Assembly (NCBI GenBank): GCA_900315195.1
Contig: OMYD01000010.1
Span: 1 to 49,666 of the forward strand
Direction of reading: 5' to 3'
Origin: an uncultured Eubacteriales bacterium
GTDB taxonomy: Bacteria > Bacillota > Clostridia > Oscillospirales > Acutalibacteraceae
Length of the DNA: 49,666 nucleotides
Shown here: positions 2,676 through 49,666 of the stretch, piece after piece
How the letters are laid out: every line of letters begins with the position of its first letter
Position numbering within the stretch: position 1 is the stretch's first letter
Notes under the pieces: generated by a model
Told to the model about the DNA's origin: nothing
The model's input: the letters and a program-made list of their open reading frames with translations, nothing else
Databases searched by the model: none
Translations under genes and position numbers: made by a program

Positions 2676-4355
2676 TCAAGTTGACGGCTGTTTTGAAGAA
2701 GGAGCGTTTTCCCCGCCGTTTGGCGGTTCGGGCGCCATACCGCCGGGAGGATTGCCGTCTTTTCCTCCGCCCTGGGTACCCATTGAGCTGATATTCAGTG
2801 AGGAAGCGTCTACCATTGCGTCTTTATTCTGCTTGTCAGATGTACTTGCAAGATCTCCGCTGAGCTGTTTGTTTATGCTTTCGCTTCGGAGCTTGCAAAA
2901 CTCTTTAAGAGTCTTTACGGCTGTATCGAATTCATCAAGGGTGTAGAACGCGGTCGGGTCGTCCTTAACATATGGATGTATCATCTGATACACGCGTTCA
3001 ATCTCCTTCTCACACTCGCCGCTGTCAAAAAAGCTCTTCATCAGCTCACCGAAGTATTTATGGTACAGCGAAAGGTATTTTTCGTTTGACACAATGCATT
3101 TCCACAGCGGTCTGCTCTCTTCGGCTGCGCCTGAAAGCGGAGAATCAATTGCCCAATTCACCGCGGACGTTGCGTCGCTGCCGCCCATGAAGCCGCCGAA
3201 CGCGAGATTGTAGTCCCACGGGAACACGCTCACCTTGCTGTCCTTTTCATATAAATAGTAGTTATGGAGCATGTTGCCGGTATAGCTGTCGTAGTTGAGG
3301 ACAAAGTTATGAGCGACAAAATAACGTACAAGCTGATCCATATCCCAGTACTTCTCAATGTTTTCGCCGCTGTTAAGAGCTTTTATTGCCGTAATAAGCT
3401 CCTTTTTGTCATCGTCTGTGACGTCGTTCTCGGCATTGTCGAAAATATCGGAATAGCTTTCGGTCTTGTCGTCTTTATATACCAGGTCTGCTCCCTTGCT
3501 GTCGTCCATTCCTCCGGGGCCTCTCTGTCCCCCGGGTCCGCCCTGCGGTATTCCCTGTGATTTTCCGTTCTCATCGACGGGCATCTGTCTGTCGCCGCCA
3601 AAGCCATCGGGCGGCTGCATATTTCCGCCCTGAGGGGGTTCCATATTTCCGTCCTGTGGCGGCTGCATATTCCAGTCGGGTTGTTTGCCGTTGGCGTTAT
3701 CCAGGCGCTCGGTCTCGGGCTTATAGAGAGCGCCGTCATCATTGCCGGTGTTGCGCTTGAGGAATGAATCGGAAACATCCTCGATCATAATATACAATCC
3801 GTGAACTTTACCGTTTACCGAAAGCTGAGCATAGCTTGTAAGCGAAGCGCTTACCCCTGCCTTGCGCATAATAAGATACGAAAGATAGTCCTTCATATAG
3901 GTAGCGTCGGACATTATATTGTTAAGATTCAGTTTGTCGAGTCCCTGATACTTCTGCCCCTTATCAAACTTTCCGAAGTTGATTTTAAAGCTGTAGCGAT
4001 CGGAATCGGAGGACGCGACCTGTGACAGCGAGGTGTTGCCCTTTGTTGCGAAAGACACGTTCTCAACCTTGTTGCCGTCAATTGTAACCGTTGCTGAATA
4101 CTTTGTCTTATTAAGCGGGTTCGCCTTTAAATCCTTCCAGTTGTCGTCCGAAAGCTCGACATTTATTTTATGGATATATCCCGTATCAAACAGGCTGTCC
4201 GCATAATTTGCGGAATTTGCCGAAGCCGCTTCATCTTTTGACGCTGCGGTTTCGGATGAAGCAGAAGATGACGAGGATTCGCTATCCCCTTTACACGCGC
4301 CGAAGCATCCTAAAAGCATAGCGGTGGACAAGCCGATTGCAAGTATTCTTTTCAA
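2676..4355 (-). CDS. CotH-family lipoprotein
   Basis: Predicted extracytoplasmic lipoprotein of the CotH (spore coat protein H) family, some members of which are atypical protein kinases; the substrate here is unknown. The best start is the TTG at 4355, because AGGGG lies 8 nt upstream and gives a normal MKRILAIGLS signal peptide. A GTG at 4364 overlaps that Shine-Dalgarno site. The lipobox is LLGC, and a Ser/Ala-rich tether follows. The CotH core begins around IHKINVELSDDNWKDL and contains SFKINF, the LNNIMSD region, LYIMIEDV and, after an insertion, FPWDYNLAFGG, a likely metal-binding Asp segment. About 90 residues rich in Gly, Pro, Met and Gln (PPQDGNM/PPQGGNM-like repeats) interrupt the core, and the C-terminus is also Gly/Pro-rich. 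The gene stands alone with its own terminator. Confidence 0.85.
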   Translation of the reverse strand: MKRILAIGLSTAMLLGCFGACKGDSESSSSSASSETAASKDEAASANSANYADSLFDTGYIHKINVELSDDNWKDLKANPLNKTKYSATVTIDGNKVENVSFATKGNTSLSQVASSDSDRYSFKINFGKFDKGQKYQGLDKLNLNNIMSDATYMKDYLSYLIMRKAGVSASLTSYAQLSVNGKVHGLYIMIEDVSDSFLKRNTGNDDGALYKPETERLDNANGKQPDWNMQPPQDGNMEPPQGGNMQPPDGFGGDRQMPVDENGKSQGIPQGGPGGQRGPGGMDDSKGADLVYKDDKTESYSDIFDNAENDVTDDDKKELITAIKALNSGENIEKYWDMDQLVRYFVAHNFVLNYDSYTGNMLHNYYLYEKDSKVSVFPWDYNLAFGGFMGGSDATSAVNWAIDSPLSGAAEESRPLWKCIVSNEKYLSLYHKYFGELMKSFFDSGECEKEIERVYQMIHPYVKDDPTAFYTLDEFDTAVKTLKEFCKLRSESINKQLSGDLASTSDKQNKDAMVDASSLNISSMGTQGGGKDGNPPGGMAPEPPNGGENAPSSKQPST

Positions 4356-32763: not shown

Positions 32764-33513
32764 TTAATTGTTATTCCCGATAAAGCTCAGCGGGTCAGCG
32801 TAGTCATTGTTTACACGGACATATACATGAATATGGCTTTTATCGGAAGCCTCCGAAGGCACAACCCCTATCGCTCCGATTTGGTCTCCCTTTTCAACCT
32901 TATCACCGGGCTTAACCTTTACACCACTAATTCCGCCGTAGCCTACCGTGACATTGTTTACCGTGATTTCAACGGTTTTGCCGTACATTTTATCATCGGT
33001 GACCTTTGTAACCTCGCCGCCCAGCATTGCCAGAACATCCTCACCAAGCTCGCCGTCAAAATCCGCCCCGGTATGAGGCTTCCATGTGTTGAGCGTCTTG
33101 TAATATACGCTGTCGCGGCTGAACGGGCGAAGAACATGACCTGACTTTGTAGGCATTGAAAGGCTTACATCGGCAGCAAGCATTGTTTCAAGCGCGTCGC
33201 CACGTCCTTTTGTTTCGTCCTCTAAAGCCTCAGTCGGATGGGTGTCCGGTTCGGCTGTTTCGGTGGGAACAGTTACTTCACTATCCGATTTCATCCCCAG
33301 CGTAGGCACCGGGACAGTTACGTTGCTTACAGGTTCATTAACTACTACAACGCCCGTTTCGGCGGTTGAAACTGTCTTTGCTTTGTTGTCGGACACTGTG
33401 TTGTATGTGGAATATACCGCCATGCAAACCGCTATAAGGCAAATGGCAAAAGCCGTGTAAAAACCGATTCTCTCACGGCGGCTTTTGGCGTTTTTACTGT
33501 AATATCTGCTCAT
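32764..33513 (-). CDS. SpoIIQ-like membrane-anchored M23 peptidase
   Basis: 249 residues: basic N-terminus, one membrane helix (about 17-40), a Thr/Val/Pro-rich stalk, and a C-terminal LytM domain (LRPFSRDSVYYKTLNTWKPHTGADFDG...SHIHVYV). The zinc residues HTGAD and HIH appear intact. In Clostridia SpoIIQ on the forespore side pairs with SpoIIIAH in the engulfment channel, and its zinc site is often kept. This suggests a spore former. ATG behind GGAGGTG. Could also be a general M23 hydrolase; no other sporulation gene is next to it. Confidence 0.75.
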   Translation of the reverse strand: MSRYYSKNAKSRRERIGFYTAFAICLIAVCMAVYSTYNTVSDNKAKTVSTAETGVVVVNEPVSNVTVPVPTLGMKSDSEVTVPTETAEPDTHPTEALEDETKGRGDALETMLAADVSLSMPTKSGHVLRPFSRDSVYYKTLNTWKPHTGADFDGELGEDVLAMLGGEVTKVTDDKMYGKTVEITVNNVTVGYGGISGVKVKPGDKVEKGDQIGAIGVVPSEASDKSHIHVYVRVNNDYADPLSFIGNNN

Positions 33514-33564
33514 AAAAAAGCACCTCCGATTCTAGTATGAACCGAAGGCGCATTAATTATACAT

Positions 33565-33789
33565 GATTTGCAGCAGAAATCTATTCATTTGCCAAAGGCA
33601 AGATTCATGTTCCGCGGAACAATTCATGAACCTGATGGTTCAATTCATTCCCGACAAAAACGCGGCTGATACGAAAAACGCTTTTGTCGCAACAAAAGAA
33701 ATACTCAGAAATAAATTGTTGCTGACGCAACATGAATTGGCTGAGCCATGAATTGTTTTTGCAAAACATGAATTGACGGCTTTGCCGTC
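33565..33789. repeat. Mirror-symmetric multi-hairpin element, copy 1
   Basis: Four short hairpins separated by ATTCAT boxes: GATTT/AAATC (33565-33581), TTGCC/GGCAA (33589-33601), GTTCCGCGGAAC (33609-33620), GAACC/GGTTC (33628-33641). A 62-nt centre (33649-33710) follows, itself containing CGACAAAA/TTTTGTCG. Then four hairpins separated by ATGAATT boxes: GTTGC/GCAAC (33718-33731), GGCT/AGCC (33739-33747), GTTTT/AAAAC (33755-33767), GACGGC/GCCGTC (33775-33789). The separators are inverted between halves, so the element looks alike on both strands. The copA stop codon lies inside the last hairpin. Confidence 0.85.
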
Positions 33790-33991
33790 ATTCTTCAACA
33801 GTGTAATCCTGAGCCTCAACCGCGGCTTTAAGCACGCTGAACGGGACCTCCTCTTTAAGGGTTACCACGGCGCGGTTCTCGGAATGGCTTACCTCTGCCC
33901 TTTCGACCTGCGGAATTGCCTCCAGGGTTTTCTTAACGCGCGCCTCGCAGTGCTCGCACATCATGCCTTTGATATTCATTGTTACTGTCAT
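33788..33991 (-). CDS. CopZ-like copper chaperone nested in frame at the 3' end of copA
   Basis: In-frame ATG at 33991 preceded by AAAGGAGA with 8-9 nt spacing would give a 67-residue protein, almost the length of a free CopZ chaperone, with the metal site GMMCEHC. Two explanations fit: an internal start that yields a separate chaperone, or a past fusion of copA with a downstream copZ that kept its ribosome-binding site. Both products might be made. Confidence 0.55.
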   Translation of the reverse strand: MTVTMNIKGMMCEHCEARVKKTLEAIPQVERAEVSHSENRAVVTLKEEVPFSVLKAAVEAQDYTVEE

Positions 33992-36262
33992 TTCGGTTTT
34001 CTCCTTTACATTATTGATTTGTTTATAGTCTTCCGTTTTGGAGCGGATTTTCACTAAATTCAGGCGCAGAGCGTTTGTCACAACGCAAAAGCTCGAAAGC
34101 GACATAGCCGCCGCGCCGAACATAGGATTGAGCTTCCAGCCGAGCGCGAAGATGAACACGCCCGCCGCAAGCGGAATACCTATTACATTGTAAATAAACG
34201 CCCAAAACAGATTTTCGTGAATATTGCGCAGGGTTGCTCTGCCAAGCTTAATAGCCGCGGTGACGTCGCTAAGGCGGCTGTTCATAAGCACCACGTCGGC
34301 GGCGTCGATCGCAACGTCGGTGCCGGCGCCTATGGCAACTCCCAAATCGGCGGCGGTAAGCGCGGGAGCGTCGTTTATACCGTCGCCCACCATGGCGGTT
34401 CTCCCCTCTTTTTTAAGCCGCTCAATCCGAGAAGCCTTTGCGTCGGGAAGCACCCCCGCGATAACCTCGTCAACGCCCGCCTGCGCTCCTATTGCCTCGG
34501 CTGTTTTTTTATTGTCGCCCGTGAGCATTACAACGCGAAGTCCCAGTGATTTCAACTCAGCAATCGCCGTGGGGCTGTCGGGCTTTATTGTATCTGCTAC
34601 GGCGATTACACCCAAAAGTTTATTTTCTTTACAGAAATATAATGGCGTCTTTCCCTCATCCGAAAAAGCTTCTGCCTGCTGCCTGGCTGAATATGGAACA
34701 TCACAGAATTTCTCAATAAAAACAGCGTTTCCGCCGACCAACAATTCTCCGTCAAACATACCCGACAGACCGTTGCCTATCTCGGTTTTATATTCTGTAA
34801 TTTCCTTTTTAGAAATATGATTCTCCTCGGCATAGCTTACAATCGCCTTTGCCAAGGGGTGTTCGCTGAGAGATTCAAGCGAATACGCCGCCTCAATCAG
34901 CCCTGATTTGCTGTCACATGCGATTACGTCGGTAACTGCGGGCTTTCCGCTTGTAATAGTGCCCGTTTTGTCGAGCACAACTGTCTTTATCCTGCCTGCG
35001 GATTCAAGCGCGACGGCATTTTTATAGAGGATTCCGTTGCGCGCGCCCACTCCGCTGCCAACCATAATCGCTACGGGAGTGGCAAGCCCAAGAGCACACG
35101 GGCAGCTGATAACGAGCACTGAAACAGCCCTTGTCAGCGCGAAGCCCGCCGACTGACCGAGCAGAATCCAGACCGCGGCAGTTATTACTGCAATTAAAAT
35201 CACAGCCGGAACAAAGATTCCGGAAACCCTGTCCGCGATTTTGGCGATAGGAGCCTTTGTTGCCGCCGCCTCACTGACCATCTTAATAACCTGAGAAAGC
35301 GTTGTGTCCTCGCCGACCTCGGTTGCGCGGCAGCGAAGATATCCCGAGCGATTTATTGTAGCCGCCGAAACCCTGTCGCCCGCGATTTTATCGACAGGCA
35401 CGCTTTCGCCTGTAAGCGTGGATTCATCAACAGCGCCGCTGCCCTCGATAATCACTCCGTCAACGGGCACGCTGTCCCCGGCGCGAACTATGAAAATATC
35501 TCCAACGCTCACCTTCTCAACAGCGATTTCTTTCTGAACGCCTTTTTGCTCAACAACAGCTGTTTTCGGCGCGAGGTTCATAAGGCTTTTTAAAGCGTTT
35601 GTGGTGCGTCCCTTTGACTTTGCTTCGAGAAGCTTTCCGACGGTTATAAGTGTCAGAATCATTGCGGCAGACTCAAAATAAAACTCATGCATATACTCCG
35701 AGGAGGCAGCCGTATTCTCTGTCATCATAAAGAGCGCGTATGTGCTGTAAACAAACGCCGTGCCCGATCCAAGAGCCACCAGCGTATCCATATTAGGGGC
35801 GCGGTGAATAAGCCCCTTGAAGCCGCTGATAAAGAACTTTTGATTGATTACCATTACGATTGCCGCAAGTAAAAGCTGTACAAGCCCCACAGCAGCATGG
35901 TTCCCCTCGAAAAACGGCGGCAGAGGCAGTCCGACCATATGCCCCATTGAAAAGTACATAAGTGCTGTAAGGAAAACAACCGAGGCTATGAGCCTTTTCA
36001 GGATTTTTAGGGATTCGTTATCTTTAAGCGCCTCGGCGGCTTCGGTTTGCTTTTGCGTTTTTTCACCCTTAACCGACGCCGAATAGCCCGCGTCCTCAAC
36101 CGCTTTTATTATTTGCGCGGGGTCTGCGCTGCCCTCAACGCCCATTGAGTTTGTCAGGAGGCTGACCGAGCATGAAGTAACGCCGGCGACCTTTGACACC
36201 GCCTTTTCAACCCTGGCGCTGCACGCCGCGCATGACATTCCGTTTACATTATATTGCCGCAT
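33788..36262 (-). CDS. copA: Copper-exporting P1B-type ATPase with N- and C-terminal HMA domains
   Basis: Membrane copper(I) efflux pump, 824 residues. N-terminal heavy-metal domain (NVNGMSCAAC), the transport motif SCPCALG, phosphorylation site DKTGT, the HP dipeptide (SEHPLAKA), hinge GDGINDAPAL, and TGES. After the last membrane helix a short linker leads to a second heavy-metal domain with GMMCEHC, an uncommon position; it begins at an internal Shine-Dalgarno and ATG (see nested entry). csoR lies 36 bp upstream and the copper operator beyond it, so this is a csoR-copA operon. ATG behind AGAGGTGA. Confidence 0.95.
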   Translation of the reverse strand: MRQYNVNGMSCAACSARVEKAVSKVAGVTSCSVSLLTNSMGVEGSADPAQIIKAVEDAGYSASVKGEKTQKQTEAAEALKDNESLKILKRLIASVVFLTALMYFSMGHMVGLPLPPFFEGNHAAVGLVQLLLAAIVMVINQKFFISGFKGLIHRAPNMDTLVALGSGTAFVYSTYALFMMTENTAASSEYMHEFYFESAAMILTLITVGKLLEAKSKGRTTNALKSLMNLAPKTAVVEQKGVQKEIAVEKVSVGDIFIVRAGDSVPVDGVIIEGSGAVDESTLTGESVPVDKIAGDRVSAATINRSGYLRCRATEVGEDTTLSQVIKMVSEAAATKAPIAKIADRVSGIFVPAVILIAVITAAVWILLGQSAGFALTRAVSVLVISCPCALGLATPVAIMVGSGVGARNGILYKNAVALESAGRIKTVVLDKTGTITSGKPAVTDVIACDSKSGLIEAAYSLESLSEHPLAKAIVSYAEENHISKKEITEYKTEIGNGLSGMFDGELLVGGNAVFIEKFCDVPYSARQQAEAFSDEGKTPLYFCKENKLLGVIAVADTIKPDSPTAIAELKSLGLRVVMLTGDNKKTAEAIGAQAGVDEVIAGVLPDAKASRIERLKKEGRTAMVGDGINDAPALTAADLGVAIGAGTDVAIDAADVVLMNSRLSDVTAAIKLGRATLRNIHENLFWAFIYNVIGIPLAAGVFIFALGWKLNPMFGAAAMSLSSFCVVTNALRLNLVKIRSKTEDYKQINNVKEKTEMTVTMNIKGMMCEHCEARVKKTLEAIPQVERAEVSHSENRAVVTLKEEVPFSVLKAAVEAQDYTVEE

Positions 36263-46526: not shown

Positions 46527-46560
46527 GCTGATGGCACAAAAGCCATCGGCGCCTTTTGTT
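46527..46560 (+). terminator. Leader hairpin with T tract before glnA (possible attenuator)
   Basis: GCTGATGGC (46527-46535) pairs with GCCATCGGC (46542-46550) around the loop ACAAAA, followed by GCC and then TTTTGTTTTTG. It has intrinsic-terminator form but lies between the promoter and the glnA start, so it should limit transcription unless an antiterminator acts. TGTTTT/AAAACA just after could form a small alternative hairpin. Confidence 0.7.
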
Positions 46561-46590
46561 TTTGCCAAAACACTTAGAGGAGAGATAAAT

Positions 46591-48678
46591 ATGACAAAGG
46601 TTCCCGAAATGTTCGGCAGCATGGTATTCAACGACAAGGTTATGCAGGAGCGCCTTCCAAAGGCTACCTACAAGGCTTTGAAAAAAACCGTTGAAAACGG
46701 CGAGCCCCTCGATGAAGGCGTTGCTAACGTAGTTGCCAACGCAATGAAGGATTGGGCGGTTGAGCTTGGCTGCACCCACTTTACTCACTGGTTCCAGCCC
46801 ATGACAGGCGTTACCGCTGAAAAGCACGACAGTTTTATTCAGCCCTTCGGCGACAGCGTTATTATGGAGTTCTCGGGCAAAGAGCTGATTAAGGGCGAAC
46901 CCGACGCTTCCTCATTCCCCAGCGGCGGAATCCGCGCTACATTTGAAGCGCGCGGCTACACAACATGGGATCCCACCTCGCCCGCATTTGTGCGCGACGG
47001 CTCATTATATATCCCCACGGCGTTCTGCTCATACACAGGAGAGGTTCTCGACAAAAAGACGCCTCTGCTCCGCTCAATGGAACGCCTGAGCGGCGAAGCT
47101 GTCAAGGTTCTTCACCTGCTCGGCAAAACCGACGTAAAACGCGTAGCCACAACCGTAGGCCCCGAACAGGAATACTTTTTAGTTGACAAGGACTTATATG
47201 ATCAGCGAGTAGATCTGAAGCTCTGCGGCAGAACACTGTTCGGCGCGATGGCTCCAAAAGGTCAGGAGCTTGAGGATCACTACTTCGGCTCAATCAAAAC
47301 CAGAGTAGCGGCGTATATGAAGGAGCTTGACGAGGAGCTTTGGAAGCTCGGCATTCTGGCCAAGACAAAGCACAATGAGGTTGCTCCCGCGCAGCACGAG
47401 CTTGCGCCGATTTTCTCGACCTCAAATATTGCTACAGACCACAACGAGCTTACAATGGAAATTATGCAGAAGGTTGCCGAAAGGCATAATCTTGTTTGCC
47501 TGCTGCACGAAAAGCCCTTCAAGGGCGTAAACGGATCAGGCAAACACAACAACTGGTCTATTTCCACCAACACGGGCGAAAATCTGCTCTCCCCCGGCAA
47601 GCACCCCGAAACAAACTATCAGTTCCAGCTTTTCCTGGCGGCAATCGTAAAGGCGGTTGACGAATATCAGGATCTATTGAGAATTACCGTTGCTTCTGCG
47701 GGCAACGACCACAGACTGGGAGCTAACGAGGCTCCGCCCGCGATTATCTCGATGTATCTCGGCGACGATCTGGACGCTCTGGTACGCTCCATCATCAACG
47801 GAAACGACTACGAGAGTCACGGCAAAGAGCGCATGCATACGGGCGTTGACGTGCTGGCGGATTTCAAAAAAGACAATTCCGACCGCAACCGCACCTCACC
47901 TTTTGCCTTTACGGGCAACAAGTTTGAGTTCCGCGCGCTCGGTTCCGCGCTGAATATCGCCTGCCCCAACTACATGCTCAACACCATGGTTGCCGAGGAA
48001 CTCAGCCAATTCTATGAAGCGCTGAAAGGCGCCGATAACATGGAAGCGGCGGTCAAGGCGCTTGTCAGGGAAACTCTTACCGCGCACCAAAGAATCATTT
48101 TCAACGGCGACAACTACTCAGACGAGTGGGTTGAGGAAGCCGAGCGCAGAGGTCTTTATAATCTGAAATCCCTGCCCGAGGCGCTCAGCCACTTTATGGA
48201 CGAAAAGAACGTCAACCTGTTTGTAAAGAACAATATCATCTCAGAAGACGAGCTTCACGCGCGCTATGAGATTGACCTTGAAACCTACTGCAAGCAGCTA
48301 AACATTGAGGCGCTTACCATGGTAGACATGGCGCGCAAGAACATCACCCCCGCTGTATCATTATTTGTACGCGAACTCACGGACACTGCTCTGTCTAAAA
48401 AGGCGCTGTCAGACTCTATTTCCGTTAATGTTGAGCTTAACCTCATCAACAGCCTGACTGTTCAGCTTGAACAGTTCGCGGCTCTGACAGACGAGCTTGA
48501 GAGTGAAATCCGCGCGGCTGCGGCGATTGATGATAATCAGGAAAAGGCTTTTGCCTACCGCAACAAGGTATTCGCCAAGATGGAAGCTCTGCGCGAGGTC
48601 GGCGACGAAATGGAAACACACACCGCTGCTGACTACTGGCCGTATCCGAGCTACACCGAGCTTTTGTTCGGAGTATGA
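46591..48678 (+). CDS. glnN: Glutamine synthetase type III
   Basis: ATP-dependent ammonium assimilation into glutamine. 695 residues from the ATG at 46591 behind GAGGAGAG, the size of GSIII (types I and II are much shorter). Characteristic segments are HWFQPMTG, EKHDSFI, FSGKELIKGEPDASSFPSGG, GPEQEYFLVD, KTKHNEVAPAQHELAP, NNWSISTNTG and RTSPFAFTGNKFEFRALGS. An in-frame upstream start at 46531 lies within the leader hairpin and is unlikely. The companions amt (downstream) and gltBD (upstream, divergent) make this a nitrogen-assimilation cluster. The symbol glnA is also used. Confidence 0.96.
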   Translation: MTKVPEMFGSMVFNDKVMQERLPKATYKALKKTVENGEPLDEGVANVVANAMKDWAVELGCTHFTHWFQPMTGVTAEKHDSFIQPFGDSVIMEFSGKELIKGEPDASSFPSGGIRATFEARGYTTWDPTSPAFVRDGSLYIPTAFCSYTGEVLDKKTPLLRSMERLSGEAVKVLHLLGKTDVKRVATTVGPEQEYFLVDKDLYDQRVDLKLCGRTLFGAMAPKGQELEDHYFGSIKTRVAAYMKELDEELWKLGILAKTKHNEVAPAQHELAPIFSTSNIATDHNELTMEIMQKVAERHNLVCLLHEKPFKGVNGSGKHNNWSISTNTGENLLSPGKHPETNYQFQLFLAAIVKAVDEYQDLLRITVASAGNDHRLGANEAPPAIISMYLGDDLDALVRSIINGNDYESHGKERMHTGVDVLADFKKDNSDRNRTSPFAFTGNKFEFRALGSALNIACPNYMLNTMVAEELSQFYEALKGADNMEAAVKALVRETLTAHQRIIFNGDNYSDEWVEEAERRGLYNLKSLPEALSHFMDEKNVNLFVKNNIISEDELHARYEIDLETYCKQLNIEALTMVDMARKNITPAVSLFVRELTDTALSKKALSDSISVNVELNLINSLTVQLEQFAALTDELESEIRAAAAIDDNQEKAFAYRNKVFAKMEALREVGDEMETHTAADYWPYPSYTELLFGV

Positions 48679-48681
48679 CAT

Positions 48682-48894
48682 GCAGCTTTGCTGCTATTCA
48701 TGTGCCGAGGCACAATTCATTACGCAGTAAATTCATGTTGCGCTGCAACAATTCATCCACAATTAAGAGGTTTGGATGATTGCATAGTTTATTGTTCCCG
48801 CAATACCTCGGAGCAGAAATGAATTGACCTTCGGTCATGAATTGGCTTTGCCGTGAATTGCCGCCGTGCGGCATGAATTGAGTGCTTTGCACTC
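48682..48894. repeat. Mirror-symmetric multi-hairpin element, copy 2
   Basis: Begins 3 nt after the glutamine synthetase stop. Four hairpins separated by ATTCAT boxes: GCAGC/GCTGC (48682-48694), GTGCC/GGCAC (48702-48713), TTAC/GTAA (48720-48730), GTTGC/GCAAC (48737-48749). A 62-nt centre (48757-48818) contains GAGGT/ACCTC and ATTGC/GCAAT. Then four hairpins separated by ATGAATT or GTGAATT: GACC/GGTC (48826-48836), GGC/GCC (48844-48852), GCCGC/GCGGC (48860-48872), GAGTGC/GCACTC (48880-48894). Same plan as 33565-33789 but with different hairpin and centre sequences. Confidence 0.85.
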
Positions 48895-48937
48895 ATGCAA
48901 CGACGCTATCATCCGATAGGCTAACATATGACAACGC

Positions 48938-48975
48938 AACGGCGCGTTTTCCCTGTTTTTGGGAGACGCGCCGTT
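48938..48975 (+). promoter_or_regulatory. Long hairpin upstream of amt
   Basis: AACGGCGCG (48938-48946) pairs with CGCGCCGTT (48967-48975), and the inner TTTCCC/GGGAGA extends the stem to about 15 bp. No T tract directly follows; TTTTTT appears 15 nt later, just before the amt ribosome-binding site. Either a terminator of the glutamine synthetase transcript or a leader structure of amt. Confidence 0.55.
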
Positions 48976-49008
48976 GTGTCATGTACATTATTTTTTGGAG
49001 TGATCAAT

Positions 49009-49666
49009 ATGAGTGAATCTGTAAAAAACCTTGTTTCACAAATGACAAATGAACAGCTGTTTGCCGTGTGGTTCTTAATCGGCGCGGCGCTGGTATTCTG
49101 GATGCAGGCGGGCTTCGCTATGGTCGAGGCAGGCTTTACCAGAGCCGGGCTTCGCTATGGTCGAGGCAGGCTTTACCAGAGCAAAAAACACAGGCAACAT
49201 TATAATGAAAAACCTGATGGACTTCTGCATAGGCACCGTCACCTTTATTTTGATCGGTTTCGGTCTGCTGATGGGCGAAGATGTTGTCGGCTTGATCGGT
49301 CAGCCCGGCTTTGATATTTTCACAGCCTACTCCGATTTCAATTTTTCAAACTTTGTATTTAACCTTGTGTTCTGCGCAACCACGGCTACCATCGTTTCGG
49401 GCGCGATGGCTGAACGCACCAAATTCCTTTCCTATTGCGTATATTCAGGCATTATATCCGCTGTAATTTATCCGATTGAAGCGCACTGGATTTGGGGCGG
49501 CGGCTGGCTGAGCGGACTTGGCTTCCACGATTTTGCGGGTTCCTGCGCGATTCACATGGTCGGCGGTATCTCCGCTCTTATCGGCGCGAAGATCCTCGGA
49601 GCGCGTATCGGCAAGTTCAAGAAACAGAAGGACGGCAGCGTGAAGGTAGGTGCGTTCCCCGGTCAC
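49009..49666 (+). CDS. amt: Ammonium transporter Amt, frameshifted by a 37-bp duplication and cut by the window edge
   Basis: Start ATG at 49009 behind TTGGAG. The N-terminal helix is FAVWFLIGAALVFWMQAGFAMVEAGFTRA, typical Amt; the family continuation KNTGNIIMKNLMDFCIGTV lies in another frame because 37 bp are repeated in tandem at 49109-49182. With one copy removed the frame stays open to the window end and shows family motifs (AMAERTKF, YPIEAHWIWGGGWLS, DFAGSCAIHMVGG). As given, translation ends at 49314. The location after glutamine synthetase fits ammonium supply. Confidence 0.9.
49109..49182 (+). repeat. Exact 37-bp tandem duplication inside amt
   Basis: The unit beginning CGGGCTTCGCTATGGTCGAG and ending TTTACCAGAGC occurs at 49109-49145 and again at 49146-49182 with no mismatch. 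37 is not a multiple of 3, so it shifts the frame. Confidence 0.95.

Follow-up and report, generated by a model that had tools for sequence, protein, structure and literature searches.

How is a run of eight short hairpins, all different in sequence and joined by a seven-base box that reads AATTCAT in one half and ATGAATT in the other, to be explained when it stands between a gene for an M23 peptidase and a copA-like gene of an uncultured Clostridia bacterium? The window, i.e., the whole stretch of DNA analyzed (49,666 nt), carries two such arrays (Table 1). At copy 1, direct reading of the sequence yields the hairpins, boxes and centre of the preliminary description. The separators are near-constant, five of the eight being exact AATTCAT or ATGAATT and three carrying a single base change, and the 62-nt centre (33649-33710) holds the expected inverted repeat, 11 nt long and 91% complementary. 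Its weakest hairpin is the first (5 bp, 7-nt loop), and the stop codon of copA (33788-33790, minus strand) does overlap the end of the last. Over positions 33565-33795, the predicted fold beats 200 of 200 shuffles on both strands (z of -4.82 and -4.92), and left boxes pair with right boxes in the predicted folds of both strands, so that one big branched cruciform may form; the opposite order of the halves in other genomes makes this pairing doubtful as a general feature. An Rfam search of the window matched only tRNA and 5S rRNA and nothing on the array, and the architecture is undescribed in the open-licence PubMed Central literature among the matches listed, in agreement with the earlier impression that no named repeat family looks like this.

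Table 1. Coordinates of the two arrays, of their neighbouring genes (window positions) and of the RAYT-like Y1 genes (positions within their own loci).
Feature	Position	Strand	Basis or remark
Copy 1, whole element ATG...CAT	33563-33791	none	sequence; covariance model matches both halves
Copy 1, AATTCAT-polarity half-array	33565-33648	+	model match 33562-33652, E 1.3e-7
Copy 1, AATTCAT-half hairpins (n=4)	33565-33581, 33589-33601, 33609-33620, 33628-33641	+	sequence
Copy 1, AATTCAT-half linkers	33582-33588, 33602-33608, 33621-33627, 33642-33648	+	TATTCAT, GATTCAT, AATTCAT, AATTCAT
Copy 1, centre (62 nt)	33649-33710	none	inverted repeat 33652-33662 / 33679-33689
Copy 1, ATGAATT-polarity half-array	33711-33789	-	model match 33707-33795 minus, E 4.2e-11
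Copy 1, ATGAATT-half linkers	33711-33717, 33732-33738, 33748-33754, 33768-33774	-	ATAAATT, ATGAATT, ATGAATT, ATGAATT
Copy 1, ATGAATT-half hairpins (n=4)	33718-33731, 33739-33747, 33755-33767, 33775-33789	-	sequence
Copy 2, whole element	48680-48896	none	model matches 48676-48760 plus, E 7.2e-10; 48815-48900 minus, E 3.0e-9
Copy 2, first-half hairpins (n=4)	48682-48694, 48702-48713, 48721-48729, 48737-48749		sequence
Copy 2, centre (62 nt, as in copy 1)	48757-48818		sequence
Copy 2, second-half hairpins (n=4)	48826-48836, 48844-48852, 48860-48872, 48880-48894		sequence
copA-like heavy-metal P-type ATPase, upstream neighbour of copy 1	33788-36262	-	E1-E2_ATPase, HMA
Codirectional gene for an M23 peptidase, downstream neighbour of copy 1	32764-33513	-	domain match
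Type III glutamine synthetase	46531-48678	+	one nucleotide lies between its stop codon and copy 2
ORF, 128 aa, downstream of copy 2	48928-49314	+	no Pfam match; start codon uncertain
RAYT-like Y1 gene, L217	736-1347		
RAYT-like Y1 gene, L217	~3932-4333		
RAYT-like Y1 gene, L219	912-1409		
RAYT-like Y1 gene, L221	725-1204	-	
RAYT-like Y1 gene, L222	741-1214		
RAYT-like Y1 gene, L223			

These two copies belong to a large set. DNA comparison matched 46 places in the host genome (G000, 2.1 Mb), and a half-array covariance model, built from an alignment of 33 half-arrays, found 35 half-arrays there, all spanning the whole model and the weakest with an E value of 1.6e-5. By position they form 19 elements, 3 of them single halves and 16 with two inverted halves, so that the four-plus-four plan recurs. 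Hairpin types also recur by position, such as GGCGAAGCC about midway along a half and GAACCGTCAGGTTC adjoining the centre. Chance or local decay is ruled out by the shuffle test, by the 35 half-arrays of the host and by the copies in its relatives. On sequence evidence, the arrays are a dispersed DNA element family made of two polar half-arrays, each with four short hairpins joined by AATTCAT; this family of dispersed DNA hairpin arrays is real, widespread and, in open-licence PubMed Central, undescribed.

The elements sit in a particular kind of place. In the host, 16 of the 19 lie between codirectional genes (two neighbours were assigned by eye), and 13 start within 5 nt of the upstream stop codon, both being raw counts for the array-bearing gaps. 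Among 30 purH-purD loci counted by eye, the gap is about 30 nt or less in 20, contains an array in 2 (G000 and G013) and is longer or different in 8. Other, unrelated repetitive-looking DNA occupies the purH-purD gap of L136 (G006), L141 (G066) and L163, and a palindromic repeat of another sort (GGGCGCAC...GTGCGC) directly adjoins arrays in L030 (~1258-1300) and L027 (~1760-1830). The arrays mark operon gaps as landing sites in little-studied gut bacteria; operon gaps may perhaps be the sole harmless landing place, and other repeats occur there too.

What the elements preserve can be read from 65 half-arrays of G000 and G013, in an alignment that was itself fitted to the covariance model: pairing is found in 88.3% of cells versus 54.0% in shuffles, two-sided changes in 349 cells versus 101, with one-sided changes confined to 11 of 1112. 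Two of the five covariation measures did not rise above shuffles (pairs with a two-sided change, 17 versus 16.0; pair types, 53 versus 53.7), and the lowest pairing, in 69.9% of cells, is that of the outer helix. The loops are strongly polarized. Among 220 unique hairpins, there are 112 triloops, which on the AATTCAT strand read GNA in 52 cases versus TNC in 2, and 79 tetraloops, which read GNNA in 37 versus TNNC in none; in 78 of 89 a C-G pair closes the loop. This bias repeats on 114 further loci of the named scan (GNA 79 versus 8, GNNA 73 versus 2) over a symmetric background (485 versus 470). Roughly half of all loops belong neither to the GNA/GNNA class nor to its reverse, and segments without a stem made up 77 of 391 in one loop run and 126 of 711 in the 114-locus run. 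Stem mismatches are neutral as to strand or nucleic acid (14 A-C versus 15 G-T). Loops of the GNA and GNNA types are described as very stable DNA mini-hairpins in PMC4686876.

A comparison of the same gaps in two species gives a measure of age and constraint. Eight gaps, recognized by their flanking proteins (one flank of the accB-fabZ gap by eye), carry arrays in both G000 (19 elements) and G013 (16). Between the two, six flanking genes agree at 54% of their four-fold sites (580/1076), after removal of the metA and accB/fabZ rows (79% and 87%), in which the aligned frames exceeded the genes; with these rows retained, identity is 65%. The arrays were compared in six common gaps, leaving out ftsK-YgiQ (a half array in G000) and 26/109a (partial), with hairpin limits set by eye and 1 of 48 linker slots having no readable linker. 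There, linkers are 91% identical (300/329 positions), a value that leans upwards because the linker search tolerated two to three mismatches, the 5' hairpin arms are 53% identical (114/216), 428 of 449 hairpin pairs are Watson-Crick, and a single hairpin of 48 is identical between the species. Hairpin letters thus change at about the pace of four-fold sites, whereas pairing and loop type do not. The common-gap copies were either inherited and constrained in place, or refilling or conversion took place in these gaps: by eye, purD and glnS copies from one species look more alike than same-gap copies, and a decayed array in the ftsK-YgiQ gap of G035 (E 0.0042) favours inheritance.

Two explanations would do without selection on DNA folding. 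The arrays could be RNA elements between cistrons, which once transcribed stabilize, terminate or process the mRNA, as their position between stop codon and ribosome site and their stable predicted RNA folds would suit. On the gene-sense strand of 24 elements, a subset of those in G000 and G013, the AATTCAT half nevertheless shows 28 GNA/GNNA loops, 0 TNC and 40 that are neither, and the opposite half 25 TNC/TNNC, 0 GNA and 32 that are neither; no single RNA explains the loops, because the preference flips with the linker between halves. Moreover, GNRA is not preferred over GNYA (19 and 18 among unique hairpins, 32 and 41 in the 114 loci), one-sided changes are rare, and the AATTCAT strand is the favoured one in 57 of 65 half-arrays by DNA energies but in only 20 of them by RNA energies. 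The structured RNA considered in the preliminary description, whose loops would have to follow the transcript and not the polarity of the linker, was rejected as the main object of selection on its loops, one-sided changes, strand energies and polarity flip, and an RNA element between cistrons is in our view quite unlikely. Alternatively, no selection on hairpins would be needed if template switching during replication re-copied one arm onto the other and kept old palindromes perfect, a mechanism described in PMC8794818 and consistent with the large excess of two-sided over one-sided changes. Such copying would not keep the linkers 91% identical, and loop inversion would yield TNC besides GNA (2 versus 52 observed). 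We therefore find this account very improbable as a whole; template switching may still supply the mutations in the arrays.

Together, the pairing, the loop bias, its flip and the DNA-versus-RNA energies indicate that DNA foldable on one strand of each half is what is kept, and they point, as far as comparison of sequences goes, to such folding as the target of selection. The data support a view in which the linker and the ability of the AATTCAT strand to fold into GNA/GNNA mini-hairpins are kept and the hairpin letters drift. The earlier suggestion of selection on hairpin form and box, not on hairpin letters, is thus upheld by the two-sided changes and the same-gap comparison. The arrays record selection on DNA form with unusual clarity, and a conserved linker with conserved foldability and free hairpin letters suggests a mobile or regulatory DNA element not described before.

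The distribution of the arrays bears on which of these it is. The search of related genomes proposed at the outset found arrays in relatives from 11 families of the order: they occur in 8 of 59 genomes (host counted), at least 7 of 60 genomes of the genus and at least 23 of 295 genomes of the order (18 of 148 genera), the counts of the larger surveys being lower bounds owing to strict filters and a limited number of candidates. G000, G013 and G055 hold at least 30 half-arrays each; the nearest relative of the host by protein, G006, has no array match even at an E value of 2. In the named scan, 70 of 80 titles among the matches listed are Clostridia or subgroups, many from ruminant gut. In other families the halves may stand in reverse order, flanking two additional hairpins in G055 and a short AATTGC centre in G051 and G054. 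Of ten viral contigs with candidate arrays, eight carry true arrays; L453 and L458 are simple repeats. A test of ten proteins, drawn from four or five of the contigs, identified a portal protein (L451, L455), a major head protein (L459) and a terminase large subunit (L460), and the genes tested in L457 gave no phage-protein match. The array of L455 begins at the end of the portal gene. Provided that the viral contigs are sound, the arrays reach phage genomes.

Among known systems, REP, BIME and REPIN sequences with their RAYT enzymes come closest, as dispersed extragenic palindromes in inverted pairs and folded single-stranded DNA; the inverted pair is the unit in 16 of the 19 host elements, and a candidate Y1 enzyme exists in some array-bearing genomes. 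A REP hairpin bears a GT[AG]G tag at its 5' foot, according to PMC6006769, whereas the foot of the array hairpins is the linker end TTCAT(G) (33 half-arrays). REP-type repeats conserve the palindrome; the arrays conserve the linker and, of the hairpins, only the shape, with eight hairpins in two polar halves. In the genus loci read, arrays flank no RAYT gene, and just 3 of 7 array-positive congeners have a RAYT. We have not filed the arrays as REPINs because they have no such tag, do not conserve the palindrome and are not seen around a RAYT gene in those loci. Integron attC sites also keep a folded single-stranded shape on the one strand that matters while letters vary, but they are defined by R and L boxes inside a stem and by the integron integrase, and the array linkers stand between serial hairpins. 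In IS200/IS605, a Y1 transposase likewise recognizes hairpins on one DNA strand, a single hairpin lying near either end and both on the same strand; the arrays are two inverted sets of four. MITEs resemble the arrays in being short, non-coding and dispersed with inverted ends, but the arrays have serial hairpins with polar loops, and for them a target duplication and a parent element would both be putative.

The Y1-like proteins of these bacteria match PF01797 weakly, carry the motifs NHVH, WQ and YIENNP, and are nearest to subclass 2.4 as tabulated in PMC6006769; up to eight matches occur in one congener. Their genes occupy the same kind of gap as the arrays (argH-argC, argJ-argB, gltX-glnS). 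The argH-argC gap is empty in G006, has a Y1 gene in G000, G035, G066 and G346 and an array in G013 and G345, the inserts of G035 and G013 both starting at the same ATG after TTATA. The gltX-glnS gap has arrays in G000, G013 and G067 and a Y1 gene in G006 and G035. RAYT-like Y1 genes fit tightly into operons for biosynthesis, at argH-argC and argJ-argB, ahead of glnS and behind an era-like gene, and in some cases overlap the stop codon upstream of them. Co-occurrence by genome is at chance (of 60 congeners, RAYT-like genes in 24, arrays in at least 7, both in 3); RAYT profile matches in 3 of 119 array-bearing named-scan loci, one of them 199 nt away, are about as many as expected; no array stood beside a RAYT gene within ~1.5 kb on each side, where the contig allows, in the genus; and the Y1 search gave no match in G054 and only a weak one in G055. 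With co-occurrence at chance level and proximity not raised, Y1/RAYT was rejected as a proven mobilizer and stays a candidate, weakly supported.

The reading that we place first, at slightly short of an even chance, is that of a mobile element resembling REPINs, made of folded single-stranded DNA, which takes up a place between a stop codon and the following ribosome site and is subsequently maintained there. The arrays point to a putative protein that would read linker and hairpin, as folded DNA, on one strand, a RAYT-type Y1 (HUH) transposase being the candidate enzyme of movement. The element would move, or have moved, as folded single-stranded DNA, as is proposed for REPINs in PMC3116915. 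It would settle in the gap with neither gene broken, and would stay constrained there through use by the host or continued action of the same protein. Patchy spread, occupied versus short gaps and the phage contigs support the mobile-element option raised initially; no transposition event was seen, and the edges of only some copies fit a target duplication. That the arrays are a kind of their own has a fair chance. The fuller version is possible but tentative: a folded single-stranded scaffold with a conserved seven-base linker, interchangeable mini-hairpins and halves of opposite polarity, read by a putative one-strand DNA-binding enzyme, spreading via gut Clostridia and phages into operon gaps and kept for a function.

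If movement mattered little, the arrays could be BIME-like host sites that form cruciforms between co-transcribed genes under negative supercoiling and bind gyrase or a nucleoid protein. Their retention in the same gaps of two species despite near-saturated synonymous sites, their codirectional neighbours and folding at the DNA level (loop bias, DNA energies) all suit this idea, but it fits poorly with the patchiness in the genus, the absence from the close relative G006 and the occurrence in phage clusters, and loop polarity demands unequal strands; we consider it rather unlikely. Improbable, too, is a MITE derived from a transposon of the ordinary double-strand DNA type, with a TA target and ATG...CAT ends, its hairpins a by-product of serial transposase sites. 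The inverted halves, the frequent TAATG...CATTA ends and the G013 purH-purD edges, which are consistent with insertion at TA, speak for it. Some copies fit TA/ATG...CAT/TA and others do not, however, an exact empty/filled pair is absent, the search for an autonomous parent covered Y1 transposases, the halves are reversed in other genomes, and loop polarity and kept pairing are left unexplained.

Several loci widen the picture. An eye check of 15 of the 119 named-scan array loci exposed five simple repeats (L239, L268, L272, L295 and L300), whose exclusion left the 114 loci of the loop count. True arrays also occur in MAGs labelled as other phyla, L238 (Synergistes) and L261 (planctomycete), where binning error, naming error or transfer could account for the labels. 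A sister array in G032 (L367, L371, L373) has the linker ACTTCAT and GAA-type hairpin loops, and beyond ~850 in L253 hairpins are joined by GTGAAGTT, perhaps another sister family. Finally, near-identical arrays at contig ends in G215 (L347-L353) lie inside a longer repeat with an outer hairpin ATGGGCACG... and a terminator-like stem, and their near-identity there suggests recent copying.
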